NCBI GenBank assembly: GCA_028684815.1
Contig: JAQUFE010000019.1
Location: 1 to 45,399, forward strand
From: Sulfurimonas sp.
GTDB lineage: Bacteria > Campylobacterota > Campylobacteria > Campylobacterales > Sulfurimonadaceae
Direction of reading: 5' to 3'
Length of the DNA: 45,399 bases
Part shown: positions 28,474 through 34,261 of the stretch, in pieces
How positions within the stretch are numbered: position 1 is the first letter of the stretch
Layout: every line of letters starts with the position of its first letter
Made by a program: the position numbers and the translations under genes
Notes under the pieces: generated by a model
Told to the model about the DNA's origin: nothing
The model's database searches: none
The model's input: only the letters and a program-made list of their open reading frames with translations

Positions 28474-28557
28474 CTAGTTCCAATGCTCTGCGTTGGAACT
28501 CATATATATCTGAGTTGTAGTATATATATAAACTCCCACGCGGAGCATGGGAGCTAG
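28474..28557. repeat. Composite inverted palindromic repeat (family A, full copy)
   Basis: The left arm, ctagttccaatgctctgcgt plus tggaact (28474-28500), and right arm, aactcccacgcggagcatgg plus gagctag (28531-28557), are diverged inverted copies of one hairpin-forming motif. They are joined by an AT-rich centre rich in tatata. Each arm is itself a palindrome. A near-identical element is at 33434-33517. The pattern resembles REP/MITE-type elements mobilised by IS200-like (RAYT) transposases, none of which is encoded here. It lies between convergent genes (Memo-like and pgeF). Confidence 0.85.
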
Positions 28558-28583: not shown

Positions 28584-29330
28584 TTAACGCATCATAATAA
28601 CACCAGCAAATCTTCCAGTTATCTTAGAGGCTCTATAGGAGAAGTATTTGCTATCTTTGCAACAACTACACTCCTTGCTTATCTCGATATTTTGCTCTTT
28701 TATGCCAGATGCTAGGAGTTGAGACTTTAAAATCTTACTAATATCTAAAAAAATGGCATCACCTCTTTGCTTTATCGCAAACTCGAGTCCTAACTCCTCT
28801 GCTTTTGTCTTAATCCCAACTTCATAACAACAAACACCTATACTCGCCCCTATAGTTACAAAAATATCTCTTGCATCTGAGCCAAAATCATCTACAAAGC
28901 TCTTAACTACATTTTTTACAATATTTTTAAATGCACCCTCTCTCCCTGCGTGAGCTACGGCGATAACTCTTTTTTTATCATCATAAAAAAGCAGAGGGCT
29001 ACAATCTGCTACCATAACCATAAGTGGGATGCCTGTTTTATCAGTTATGAGTGCATCACAGGTTGGAGGATTTGAAAAGTTATCTTTAGCATCTACGATA
29101 TGAACTAAATTAGAGTGAATCTGCTTCATATGAACAAGCGTTTCTCTTTTGTAGTTTAGATGAGAGGCTAAAATATCATGATTTTGTAAAACTGCTTCTT
29201 CTTTGTCGCCTACATGAAAGGCTAGATTTAGCGAGTTAAATGGGGCGAGACTTACTCCGCCATCTCTTAACGAAAATGCGTGAATGAGTTTTGCTTGGTT
29301 CTTTAATCTTGGGCTTTGATGAATTTTCAT
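28584..29330 (-). CDS. pgeF: Multicopper-polyphenol-oxidase/laccase-domain protein (PgeF/YfiH family)
   Basis: Cytoplasmic protein of the YfiH family. Members have been described as editing enzymes in peptidoglycan synthesis (PgeF) or purine nucleoside phosphorylases, despite the laccase name. Metal-site residues are present: His in HMKQIHSNLVH, Cys in VADCSPLLF and His in AHAGREGAFKNIV. A C-terminal FSYR segment is typical. The start at 29330 (MKIHQSPRLKNQ) is preferred over an ATG at 29351, giving 248 residues. It is divergent from ovoA with only 32 bases between them. Confidence 0.88.
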   Translation of the reverse strand: MKIHQSPRLKNQAKLIHAFSLRDGGVSLAPFNSLNLAFHVGDKEEAVLQNHDILASHLNYKRETLVHMKQIHSNLVHIVDAKDNFSNPPTCDALITDKTGIPLMVMVADCSPLLFYDDKKRVIAVAHAGREGAFKNIVKNVVKSFVDDFGSDARDIFVTIGASIGVCCYEVGIKTKAEELGLEFAIKQRGDAIFLDISKILKSQLLASGIKEQNIEISKECSCCKDSKYFSYRASKITGRFAGVIMMR

Positions 29331-29362: not shown

Positions 29363-31477
29363 TTGAACAATCTTAGCATATATCCTCCTACACTTGATGA
29401 GGGAACTATAGAGAATAAACGACAAGAAATACTAGAATATTTTAACAACACTTACACACTTTTTGAGAAAGTTTTTAAGACTCTTATAAGTGATGAGGTC
29501 TTTTACAAAAAGTCAGAACCATCAAGACATCCGATGATATTTTACTTCGGTCACACCGCAACTTTTTTTATAAACAAACTTTTACTTATGAAGATAATAG
29601 ACAAAAGAGTAGATGCGAATTTTGAGTCCATCTTTGCAGTAGGCGTTGATGAGATGGCGTGGGATGATGTGGAGTCTAAAAATTATGCATGGCCAAGGGT
29701 TGATGAGGTAAGAGAGTATAGAGCGAAGGTAAGAGAAATAGTGAGTAAGCTTATTATGAGCCTTGAATTTGAGCTTCCCATCAGACAAAATTCTCCTATG
29801 TGGGTAATTCTTATGGGTATTGAGCATGAGAGGATTCATATAGAGACCTCACTTGTGCTTCATCGTCAGATGCCACTAGAGTTTGTAAAAAATGTAGAGG
29901 AGTTTAAAATCTGCTCACACAGCTCAAAAGCTCCAAAAAATGAGATGATAAAGATAGCATCACAGCAGGTAAAACTAGGAAAAAGCACAACTCACAATCT
30001 CTATGGTTGGGATAATGAGTATGGACATTATGAAGAAGAAGTTGGTGAATTTAAGGCTTCAAAATATCTTGTAAGTAATGCTGAGTTTTTGGAGTTTGTG
30101 GAGAGTGGCGGTTATGAGAGTGATGAGTTTTGGGATGAAGAGGGACAAGAATATCTGAAAAACTCAAAGGCAAGACACCCTGTTTTTTGGGTTTATGAAG
30201 ATGGAGTTTATAGATATAGAGCTCTTTGTGAAGTTATAGAGATGCCACTTGATTGGCCAGTTGATGTAAATGCACTAGAGGCTGAGGCATTTTGTAGATA
30301 TAAGAGTAAAAAAGATGAGATGCTTTATCTTCTTCCTAGTGAGGCTGAACATAGGGCTATTTATGAGCAGACAAATATAGAAGATTTACCTGCTTTTCAT
30401 CAAAGTCGCGCAAATCTTAACTTCTATCACTACGCTAGCTCATGCCCTGTAAATGAGTTTGGTTTTCATACAAAGAGCGGCGAATCCATCTTTGATGTGG
30501 TGGGAAATGTTTGGCAGTGGAGCAGAACGCCTATGCGTCCCTTTGAAGGTTTTGAAGTTCACGAGGCTTATGATGACTTTACAGCTCCAACTTTTGATGA
30601 AAAACATGCACTAATCTTTGGCTCATCATGGGCTAGTAGTGGAAACCTTATTATGAAGCACTCTCGCTATGCTTTTAGAAAACACTTTCCTCAAAATGCA
30701 GGGTTTAGATATGTGATATCTAGCAATCAAGATGAGAGTAAATCAGATATATATGAGAGTGATGAGCTAGTTTCGCAGTATTGTGAATTTCAATACGGCA
30801 AAAGCTATTTTGGAGTTAAAAACTTTGCAAAAGAGTGTGCAAAGATAGCAGTAGAGTTTAGTACCAACAAAACAAAAGCACTAGATTTGGGATGTGCCAC
30901 TACAAGGGCTAGTTTTGAGCTTGCAAAGGAGTTTGATGAGGTTGAGGGTGTTGACTTCTCGGCTCGTTTTATTCAAGTGGGAGTGAAGTTAAAAGAGAGA
31001 GGATATGTTGCCTTTGCATCTAAACTAGAGGGCGATTTGGTGCAAAACAAAAAGGTAAGCATTGAAGAGTTAGGCTATAGGGATATTGCCCACAAGGTCT
31101 CATTTTGGCAAGGAGATGCTTGTAATCTAAAACCAAACCTAAACTCATACGACTTAGTGATGGCAACAAACCTAATAGACAGACTCTACAATCCTAAGCT
31201 CTTTTTAGAAACTATCCATGAAAGGCTAAATAGCGAGGGTACACTTATGATAACCTCTCCATACACATGGCAAGAGAGCTCAACTCAAAAAGAGCATTGG
31301 CTAGGCGGTTTTATAGATGCCGATGGTAATGAAGTAAGGACACTTGATAGCTTAAAAGAGATTTTAAGCGAGCATTTTGAGCTTGTGCATCTTAGAGATA
31401 TAGAGTTTGTTATAAAAGAGACAGCAAGGAAGTTTCAGCACACTATTGCACAGTGTAGCATCTGGAAAAAGAAGTGA
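29363..31477 (+). CDS. ovoA: 5-histidylcysteine sulfoxide synthase/4-mercaptohistidine N1-methyltransferase (OvoA)
   Basis: Iron enzyme for the first and last steps of ovothiol A synthesis: oxidative coupling of cysteine to histidine C5, then N1-methylation of the mercaptohistidine. The 704-residue protein has an N-terminal DinB-like domain with the iron ligands H-x3-H-x-E (HERIHIE, His155, His159, Glu161), a central FGE-sulfatase-like domain (DVVGNVWQWSRTPMRPFEG; GSSWAS; FRKHFPQNAGFRYV) and a C-terminal SAM methyltransferase (ALDLGCATTRASFELA). A TTG start at 29363 after aaaggg is preferred to an ATG at 29291 inside pgeF. The stop overlaps the next gene by 4 bases (GTGA). Confidence 0.9.
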   Translation: MNNLSIYPPTLDEGTIENKRQEILEYFNNTYTLFEKVFKTLISDEVFYKKSEPSRHPMIFYFGHTATFFINKLLLMKIIDKRVDANFESIFAVGVDEMAWDDVESKNYAWPRVDEVREYRAKVREIVSKLIMSLEFELPIRQNSPMWVILMGIEHERIHIETSLVLHRQMPLEFVKNVEEFKICSHSSKAPKNEMIKIASQQVKLGKSTTHNLYGWDNEYGHYEEEVGEFKASKYLVSNAEFLEFVESGGYESDEFWDEEGQEYLKNSKARHPVFWVYEDGVYRYRALCEVIEMPLDWPVDVNALEAEAFCRYKSKKDEMLYLLPSEAEHRAIYEQTNIEDLPAFHQSRANLNFYHYASSCPVNEFGFHTKSGESIFDVVGNVWQWSRTPMRPFEGFEVHEAYDDFTAPTFDEKHALIFGSSWASSGNLIMKHSRYAFRKHFPQNAGFRYVISSNQDESKSDIYESDELVSQYCEFQYGKSYFGVKNFAKECAKIAVEFSTNKTKALDLGCATTRASFELAKEFDEVEGVDFSARFIQVGVKLKERGYVAFASKLEGDLVQNKKVSIEELGYRDIAHKVSFWQGDACNLKPNLNSYDLVMATNLIDRLYNPKLFLETIHERLNSEGTLMITSPYTWQESSTQKEHWLGGFIDADGNEVRTLDSLKEILSEHFELVHLRDIEFVIKETARKFQHTIAQCSIWKKK

Positions 31478-32658
31478 GGTATGACTTTAGTACACATTCA
31501 GATAGAGAAAATTCTAGGGCTGAGAAATACACTCTAAGAGAAGAACTTTTTGGGACAGAAGATGTGCTTCCTGCTTGGGTTGCTGATATGAATATAAACA
31601 CACCAGAGTTTGTTTTAGATGCGGTCAAAAAAAGGTTAGAGCATCCTATAATTGGTTATGAGACAATGCCGCAAAGTGCTTTTGAAGCACAGATAGAGTG
31701 GATGAAACGAGAGCATGGTATCTCTTATGAGTTAGAAGATTTGCTCTACTCTCACTCCGTTGTGGCATCTATGGATTTGGCAATCGATGCTTTTAGTGAG
31801 ATAGGTGATAAAGTGATAGTTCAAACTCCAATCTATCCTCCTTTTTTAGCAAGCCTAAGAGAGCAAAAAAGAGAAGTTTTGAAAAATCCTCTAAAACAAG
31901 GAAGTGATGGAAGATATCTTTTTGATATAGAAGATTTAAGAGCAAAAATAGATGATAAAACTAAGCTCTTGCTTCTTTGTTCGCCTCATAATCCTGTTGG
32001 CAGAGTTTGGAGACGAGAAGAGTTAGAGGAGATTTTAGAACTCTGTTTGGAGCACAATATTGTAGTCTTTAGTGATGAGATTCACTCAGATTTAGTCTAT
32101 GCACCAAACAGACACATCCCTTTTGTAACTCTAAGTCAAAAAGCAAGAGATATCACTATAACAGCCATAGGAGTTGGAAAAACTTTTAATATGGCAGGCT
32201 TTGCGATGAGTAGCGTGGCTATAGCAAACAAGGCTCTGCGAGAGAGGTTTTTACAGAGCTATAGAAGAGTTCATATTGGGCATGGTAGTGTCTTGTCGCA
32301 AGTGGCTTTTGAAGCTGCTTATAGAGAGGGTAGAGAGTGGCTAGAGGAGTTAAAGGTTCATCTTTTTGGTAACTATGAGCTACTTGAGGAAGTTTGCAAA
32401 AAACATAACAATATCATAAAACCAGTACCTATAGAAGCTACATATCTTGCGTGGGTTGATTGTAGAGGTTTAGGATTAAACAATAGAGCCATAAAAGATT
32501 TTTTTATCCAAGATGCAAAGTTAGGTCTAAACAATGGACTTAGTTTTTCAAAAGAGGGGAGTGGTTTTATGAGGCTAAACTTTGGAGTGAGTCGTGATGA
32601 GATGCAAGAGATTGTAAGAAGAATTGACAGAGCCTTATCAGAGTTTAAAGATGAGTGA
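31474..32658 (+). CDS. MalY/PatB-type PLP C-S lyase, candidate OvoB
   Basis: A 394-residue fold-type I PLP enzyme of the cystathionine beta-lyase/PatB group. Key blocks are LPAWVADMNINTPEFVLDAV, TPIYPPF, LCSPHNPVGRVW, FSDEIHSDLVY and the PLP lysine in GVGKTFNMAGF. PatB enzymes cleave C-S bonds of cysteine conjugates. Ovothiol synthesis needs a PLP sulfoxide lyase (OvoB) to split 5-histidylcysteine sulfoxide, and the GTGA overlap with ovoA makes this the natural candidate. The family is firm, the OvoB role is inferred. A general cystathionine beta-lyase is the alternative. Confidence 0.8.
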   Translation: MRYDFSTHSDRENSRAEKYTLREELFGTEDVLPAWVADMNINTPEFVLDAVKKRLEHPIIGYETMPQSAFEAQIEWMKREHGISYELEDLLYSHSVVASMDLAIDAFSEIGDKVIVQTPIYPPFLASLREQKREVLKNPLKQGSDGRYLFDIEDLRAKIDDKTKLLLLCSPHNPVGRVWRREELEEILELCLEHNIVVFSDEIHSDLVYAPNRHIPFVTLSQKARDITITAIGVGKTFNMAGFAMSSVAIANKALRERFLQSYRRVHIGHGSVLSQVAFEAAYREGREWLEELKVHLFGNYELLEEVCKKHNNIIKPVPIEATYLAWVDCRGLGLNNRAIKDFFIQDAKLGLNNGLSFSKEGSGFMRLNFGVSRDEMQEIVRRIDRALSEFKDE

Positions 32659-33061
32659 TTTAGAAAAAATAGAGGCTTTTATAGAGAAGCATCACGTTCT
32701 AAGTTTAGCCACTTCTGATGGCGATGAGCTTAGTGTTTGTAGCCTCTTTTATGCCTATAATGGACTCACATTTGTAGTGGCTAGTAGCGAAGATACTACA
32801 CATATAAAGCATGTTTTGAAAAATCAAAAAGTAGCTGGAAATATTCTTTTAGAGACAAAAGAGATAGGTAAAATCCAAGGCTTGCAGTTTAGAGGAATCT
32901 TTACAACTCTTGATGAGGGCAAACTCAAAAAACTATACTTTAAAAGATTTCCCTATGCACTTGCAATGAGGGCAAAACTATGGAAGGTAGAAGTTGATTA
33001 TTTTAAGCTAACTGACAATAGGCTAGGGTTTGGCAAAAAGCTTATTTGGCAGGGGTCTTAA
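32651..33061 (+). CDS. Pyridoxamine-phosphate-oxidase-like split-barrel protein (UPF0306/YhbP type)
   Basis: A 136-residue protein with a predicted FMN-binding split barrel: HHVLSLATSDGDELSVCSLF, YNGLTFVVASSEDTTHIKHV and GLQFRGIF follow the fold's strand pattern, and LWKVEVDYFKLTDN near the C-terminus resembles YhbP. The start at 32651 (MSDLEKIEAF) overlaps the PLP enzyme by 8 bases, so it should be part of the ovothiol operon. Flavin binding is expected from the fold but no catalytic residues can be named. A redox role linked to thiols is inference. Confidence 0.7.
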   Translation: MSDLEKIEAFIEKHHVLSLATSDGDELSVCSLFYAYNGLTFVVASSEDTTHIKHVLKNQKVAGNILLETKEIGKIQGLQFRGIFTTLDEGKLKKLYFKRFPYALAMRAKLWKVEVDYFKLTDNRLGFGKKLIWQGS

Positions 33062-33215
33062 GTTCAAAGAGAGAGCATTCGCTCCCACTACTTTGAAAAA
33101 CTACAATAGATGGGAGTTGAGCTGATTTAAAACCATAAGCCTTGCATCCATGAGGTTTATCTTTTTCCCAAGTAACATAATAAAATTTGCATCTTCTACA
33201 GTTTATTCTTTTCAT
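33042..33215 (-). CDS. Small four-cysteine protein, 57 residues, unknown function
   Basis: An intact reading frame MKRINCRRCKFYYVTWEKDK continuing to ELKTPAK and a TAA stop. An agagag ribosome site precedes the ATG. Cysteines at 6, 9, 24 and 47 (a CxxC plus CKAYGF and ECSLF) suggest a zinc-binding fold. From memory, similar short proteins exist in related bacteria, sometimes labelled as uracil-DNA glycosylase without basis. It overlaps the 3' end of the split-barrel gene by 20 bases in convergent orientation. The inverted repeat at 33257-33279 lies about 42 bases upstream. Function is unknown. Confidence 0.75.
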   Translation of the reverse strand: MKRINCRRCKFYYVTWEKDKPHGCKAYGFKSAQLPSIVVFQSSGSECSLFELKTPAK

Positions 33216-33568: not shown

Positions 33569-34261
33569 TTGGACAAAATATTATTGATGTTACAGCTTCA
33601 AGCACAATTAAACGATGCAACAAATGGAGAAAATTGGGTTAAGGGTATAACCAAAGATGCTAAAGAGATAGATTGGAAGAGATGCATCTATATGGAGTGT
33701 GCGGAGATGATCGATAGTTTTTCATGGAAACATTGGAAGAACATCAAACAAGAACCAGACTGGGCAAACTTGCAGGTAGAAGTAGTTGATGTATGGCACT
33801 TTGTAATGAGTTTGGCTATTGAGAACTATAGTAAAACTCTAAGGGGTGGTATAGAAGATTTGGCTATCAATATATCTAACTTAGATAGTTTTTCTAAGAT
33901 AGATACAAAAAGTGATGACTTTGCGCCACAAAAGAAGATTATGCTAAAGGTTGAAGATATTATGCGCGAGGTTTTAAGTCAAGATGAGCTTGACCTTGAA
34001 GCTCTCCTTGCAAGTTTTTTTGACCTAGTTGTTTTTAGTGGATTAGATTTAGAAACTCTTTATAGACTCTATGTTGGTAAAAATATCTTAAATCAGTTTC
34101 GCCAAGATCATGGTTACAAAGAGGGCACTTATATTAAAGTTTGGGCAGGGAAAGAGGATAATGTTATTATGAAGAGAATTTGGGAAGAGAATGTAGATAT
34201 AGCGCCAGATGAACTCTATAATGAGCTTACAAAACTATACCTCTCAATGACTAAGAGCTAA
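33569..34261 (+). CDS. dut: Dimeric dUTP diphosphatase
   Basis: Hydrolyses dUTP to dUMP, keeping uracil out of DNA. The sequence is of the all-alpha dimeric type known from Campylobacter, not the trimeric type. IYMECAEMIDSFSWKHWK carries the acidic metal-binding E-x2-x2-D pattern, and QVEVVDVWHFVMSLAIE the second E-x3-D motif. KNILNQFRQDHGYKEGTY near residue 175 is conserved. The TTG start follows aaagga with good spacing. It is 230 residues. An ABC ATPase gene follows 4 bases later. Confidence 0.9.
   Translation: MDKILLMLQLQAQLNDATNGENWVKGITKDAKEIDWKRCIYMECAEMIDSFSWKHWKNIKQEPDWANLQVEVVDVWHFVMSLAIENYSKTLRGGIEDLAINISNLDSFSKIDTKSDDFAPQKKIMLKVEDIMREVLSQDELDLEALLASFFDLVVFSGLDLETLYRLYVGKNILNQFRQDHGYKEGTYIKVWAGKEDNVIMKRIWEENVDIAPDELYNELTKLYLSMTKS

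Follow-up and report, generated by a model that had tools for sequence, protein, structure and literature searches.

The stretch of DNA analysed here (the window; 45,399 nucleotides of contig JAQUFE010000019.1 in Sulfurimonas sp. assembly GCA_028684815.1) carries an ovoA gene, a PatB-type lyase gene and a yhbP-like gene in overlapping succession, and the question is whether all three serve synthesis of the antioxidant ovothiol. Near relatives place the genome in Sulfurimonas, and the organism is a sulfur-oxidising bacterium. An initial annotation, made from the sequence alone, had described them as a compact three-gene ovothiol cluster, the third gene being a potential redox partner. The reading preferred here, held at a probability of roughly 0.84, is that ovothiol A is made by a unit of two translationally overlapping genes, ovoA and ovoB, beside which the yhbP-like gene is co-located without being specific to ovothiol. 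The features of the locus are as follows.

28584..29330, minus strand: pgeF (peptidoglycan editing factor), divergent and upstream of ovoA (TIGR00726, 180 bits)
29363..31477, plus strand: ovoA, 5-histidylcysteine sulfoxide synthase fused to 5-thiohistidine N-methyltransferase, 704 aa (TIGR04344, TIGR04345, PDB 8khq)
29552..29554, plus strand: codon of OvoA His64, putative Fe ligand 1 (aligned with His71 of the 8khq chain)
29825..29839, plus strand: codons containing OvoA His155 and His159 (HERIH), putative Fe ligands 2 and 3 (8khq His162 and His166)
30752..31471, plus strand: C-terminal methyltransferase domain of OvoA (TIGR04345; SAM motif DLGCA)
31474..32658, plus strand: ovoB candidate, PatB-type PLP C-S lyase, 394 aa (TIGR04350; PDB 6qp3; within the clade of the family's OvoB)
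32179..32181, plus strand: codon of lyase Lys236, putative PLP Schiff-base lysine (GKTFN, against SKTFN of PatB 6qp3)
32651..33061, plus strand: yhbP-like split-barrel protein, 136 aa, part of a yhbP-dUTPase block (profiles, predicted fold, synteny)
33042..33215, minus strand: 57-aa Cys-rich small protein, convergent with yhbP (homologues behind yhbP in most Sulfurimonas)
33569..34261, plus strand: dUTPase, a neighbour of yhbP conserved across the phylum (profile match; gene order in relatives)

The ovoA reading frame is already open from position 29291, and its start was placed at the TTG at 29363 because relatives agree on it and because it leaves a 32-bp spacing to the start of the divergent pgeF, which holds the same position in most Sulfurimonas. 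As initially annotated, the lyase gene starts (GTG, 31474) inside the GTGA of the ovoA stop, and the third gene starts (ATG, 32651) 8 bases before the lyase gene ends at 32658. Among relatives, the position that overlaps the ovoA stop holds ATG, GTG or TTG, or in some a non-start codon, with TTG, ATG, GTG or CTG twelve bases upstream; start codons thus vary at this junction, so that the tight overlap is conserved if nothing has been inserted and the exact start is not. The yhbP-like gene is probably co-transcribed with ovoA-ovoB in the window. Promoter and terminator scans gave sites no more numerous than in shuffled sequences, and an Rfam search of the window returned zero matches. The 57-aa Cys-rich protein shows the pattern CRRC...HGC and had no match in Pfam or NCBIfam. 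A palindromic repeat, CTCCCACGCGGAGCATGGGAG, was seen at 28533, 33337 and 33493, two of these copies sitting inside a 50-base repeat; when up to 2 mismatches were allowed, 60 copies, often paired, were counted in the genome, and the reversed control gave 0.

The N-terminal DinB/FGE sulfoxide-synthase module of OvoA scored 645 bits against TIGR04344 (equivalog cut-off 400), and the C-terminal mercaptohistidine N-methyltransferase scored 326-330 bits against TIGR04345 (cut-off 170) with all 242 positions covered and the SAM motif DLGCA at residue 508. As both profiles are above cut-off, two modules are present, and with the HxxxHxE motif at residues 155-161 the initial description of an iron domain joined to a methyltransferase was borne out. 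PDB entry 8khq, which we take to be OvoA Th2 of Hydrogenimonas thermophila, aligned at 818 bits across residues 2-703, with His64, His155, His159 and Tyr403 opposite His71, His162, His166 and Tyr406; the three aligned histidines are presumably the Fe ligands. OvoA Th2 is, like the window OvoA, a full-length two-module enzyme (about 53% identity over the N-terminal 502 aligned residues) and shares these histidines and the active-site tyrosine, although the genus differs. This enzyme, also from the Campylobacterota, has been characterised (Wang et al. 2023, ACS Catal, doi 10.1021/acscatal.3c04026, as cited in PMC11677154). With the roles of OvoA assigned by orthology with characterised enzymes, its iron centre would convert histidine (at C5), cysteine and O2 to 5-histidylcysteine sulfoxide, and its C-terminal domain would carry out SAM-dependent methylation of the imidazole N-pi; between these steps, the PatB-type lyase would use PLP to cleave the sulfoxide to 5-thiohistidine, pyruvate and ammonia.

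Variants of OvoA were observed among relatives. In genus g5 of the window's family, OvoA mostly lacks the methyltransferase domain; in one genome (G390, L252:390-2238) a TIGR04345 methyltransferase is encoded separately, 22 bp behind a gene of the ADP-ribosylglycohydrolase family, and in another (G176, L251:391-2232) the two are fused in a single 613-aa frame. In seven other g5 genomes the methyltransferase was not above cut-off, OvoA of G217 retaining a partial one, and G333 and G122 carry the ADP-ribosylglycohydrolase-family gene alongside a full OvoA. The closest ovoA in the contig search (79%; L062) belongs to a MAG that bears the label Aliarcobacter and sits there on a contig of 3.5 kb; mis-binning or transfer is possible. 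A review of a bacterial survey states that OvoA-like proteins without methyltransferase exist, and mentions two anaerobic species with ovothiol genes, one of them referenced to the genome paper of Sulfurimonas hongkongensis.

The second gene product scored 527 bits against TIGR04350 (cut-off 340) and 302 bits against PatB (PDB 6qp3), and has GKTFN, the motif of the PLP lysine, at residue 235. The PLP motif is the same in PatB-family C-S lyases (TIGR04350; PDB 6qp3, 4dgt), from which the window lyase would differ by its expected physiological substrate, histidyl-cysteine sulfoxide. Among 397 Campylobacterota genomes, of which 119 have ovoA above cut-off and 278 do not, a PatB lyase above the curated cut-off was found in 119/119 ovoA-bearing vs 74/278 ovoA-less genomes. 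Within the window's family (f1) the lyase was present in 49/49 ovoA-bearing vs 0/3 ovoA-less genomes (G010, G015 and G027; p 4.5e-5), Fisher p-values being illustrative only, as they overstate independence among genomes that share ancestry. Joint loss and joint relocation of ovoA and the lyase gene are stronger points than these p-values: in G311 the ovoA-ovoB pair has been relocated as a pair, leaving yhbP between pgeF and dUTPase. Direct adjacency was found in five Campylobacterota families (f1, f4, f7, f8 and f11), with lyases from adjacent pairs down to 35-45% identity with the window lyase, and also in an annotated Sulfurovum mangrovi record; side-by-side ovoA-ovoB is ordinary among relatives of this Sulfurimonas. 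About 15 other genera have ovoA without PatB next to it, and no PatB match was found near ovoA in gammaproteobacterial plasmid records (Rahnella, Ewingella, Photobacterium and Aeromonas; four loci), so that confirmation of the operon does not extend to these outside loci.

In the lyase tree, the f1 lyases formed one supported clade, plus two outside rows (one from G381), with the long-branched g3 lyase outside the clade and the g6 genomes, which have the lyase gene near yhbP and ovoA elsewhere, inside it. The OvoB of G381 (L218, family f7) branched within the Sulfurimonas clade of f1, a placement that suggests transfer or mis-binning. The ovoA-ovoB junction was also observed to be a repeated insertion site in Sulfurimonas (L160, L068, L070, L124 and others), the inserts comprising NgoPII-type restriction-modification, other DNA methylase, KilA-N and ORF6N genes.

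The ovoA-ovoB reading is well supported, and family, motif, co-occurrence and gene order together point to a role for the lyase as OvoB. It was nevertheless considered whether the lyase might be a general cystathionine or cysteine-conjugate beta-lyase that happens to lie beside ovoA, another PLP enzyme performing the ovothiol step. Enzymes of the PatB family act on a wide range of C-S bonds, such a lyase occurs in 74 genomes that have no ovoA, and the nearest solved structure is annotated as cystathionine beta-lyase PatB; against this, the complete co-occurrence, joint absence in f1, joint relocation and adjacency in five families make such an arrangement unlikely. As OvoB has been described as a broad-specificity beta-lyase (PMC12631010), the two ideas are also not exclusive. 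The synthase itself could in principle be an ergothioneine-type (EgtB-IV) or selenium-type enzyme, given that related folds were matched (EgtB-IV at 339 bits, OvsA at 63 bits), but the OvoA structure 8khq scored far higher and the protein is fused to a 4-mercaptohistidine N1-methyltransferase domain (326 bits). Moreover, the best EgtD score in the genome was 19.7 bits vs a cut-off of 290.9; with no EgtD above cut-off, the pathway is not that of ergothioneine, and this reading was rejected, an enzyme of either other type being extremely improbable.

The third gene product was compared with the YhbP/UPF0306 and pyridoxamine-phosphate-oxidase-like split-barrel proteins, which it resembles in profile (NF002900 YhbP, 111 bits) and in predicted fold, although it falls under the curated cut-offs of both NF002900 (equivalog, 176) and PNPOx_N (27.8 vs 28.1 bits). 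Its AlphaFold2 model is a confident split barrel (pLDDT 94) with 153 PDB matches at E < 0.001 and TM up to 0.83, including plant and mycobacterial heme-binding proteins, HugZ, HutZ, PNPOx-like and F420-binding entries. The model suggests a flavin or heme split-barrel protein; the split barrel of the initial annotation therefore stood, and its flavin became one possible cofactor among others. This fold, the 8-base overlap with ovoB and an ovoB-yhbP order that is common in Sulfurimonas, g4 and g5 loci would all suit a three-gene ovothiol operon in which the YhbP-like protein is a dedicated redox partner that would reduce, for example, the sulfenic acid product of the lyase or the disulfide form of ovothiol. 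The distribution of the gene argues otherwise. It was found in 70/119 ovoA-bearing vs 164/278 ovoA-less genomes (odds ratio 0.99, p 1.0), with an odds ratio of 0.32 outside the window's family; none of the 48 ovoA-bearing genomes in f4, f7 and f11 has it, nor does it occur in any ovoA locus outside f1. It is retained in the f1 genomes without ovoA (G015, G027 and G010), and it lies beside or near dUTPase both in ovoA-less loci of f1 and other families (L220, L222, L226, L228, L229, L235 and L239) and in f10 genomes with ovoA elsewhere (L232, L233 and L237). A redox partner of this kind, as had been proposed initially, is thus quite unlikely and was rejected on co-occurrence, loss, relocation and synteny, the gene staying in place when ovoA-ovoB is lost or moved; the function of the yhbP-like gene is probably not ovothiol-specific. 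The proposed cluster was accordingly reduced to its first two genes, and conservation of the neighbours with ovoA in relatives held for the lyase gene only.

The yhbP-like gene adjoins the ovoA-ovoB unit because of old gene order, and the simplest history is that yhbP and dUTPase already formed a block when, in the ancestry of the family, ovoA-ovoB was placed next to it in a single event. The compactness of the three genes in the window results from the absence of a small gene (S73) between ovoB and yhbP. This family-specific gene, encoding a 73-80 aa five-helix protein directly before yhbP (for example L107:6039-6263), was found in 29 genomes (most Sulfurimonas, one g2 and two g4); neither the window nor G254, its nearest relative, has it. 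For the 73-80 aa protein, Pfam and NCBIfam gave nothing above cut-off, and a fold search with the 73-aa protein gave no PDB match. A role as an ovothiol gene was not supported, since the small gene goes with yhbP and is absent from the window; in G010 and G311 it lies beside yhbP with ovoA not adjacent. The order ovoB-(S73)-yhbP was kept in 27/30 Sulfurimonas panel loci, 4/4 g4 and 7/9 g5 loci, and it is intact in the 7/29 Sulfurimonas genomes in which inserted genes split ovoA from ovoB. Judging by these split loci and by g6, ovoB is linked to yhbP no less closely than to ovoA. As ovoB and yhbP stay together despite the insertions, there is a small chance that the old yhbP was recruited in the Sulfurimonadaceae after the arrival of ovoAB and that its split-barrel protein would now act on ovothiol or on OvoB's sulfenic acid product. 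Such recruitment is considered very unlikely; if true, it would explain the cohesion of ovoB and yhbP despite inserts between ovoA and ovoB.

The three enzymatic steps of ovothiol synthesis, OvoB and the methyltransferase activity of OvoA have already been described (PMC9103826, PMC12631010). PMC9103826 describes the Erwinia tasmaniensis OvoB (Naowarojna et al. 2018) as a PLP C-S lyase assigned to sulfoxide cleavage, and the window candidate is likened to it by this description. For the Campylobacterota, the Sulfurimonas locus provides a clean comparative case for calling PatB-type lyases OvoB. Hardly any protein is known to sense 5-thiohistidines or to use them (PMC12631010), and a genuine third ovothiol gene would matter; this locus supplies none. 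It instead provides a caution that gene overlap alone can be misleading where a gene pair has been newly placed next to an old syntenic block.
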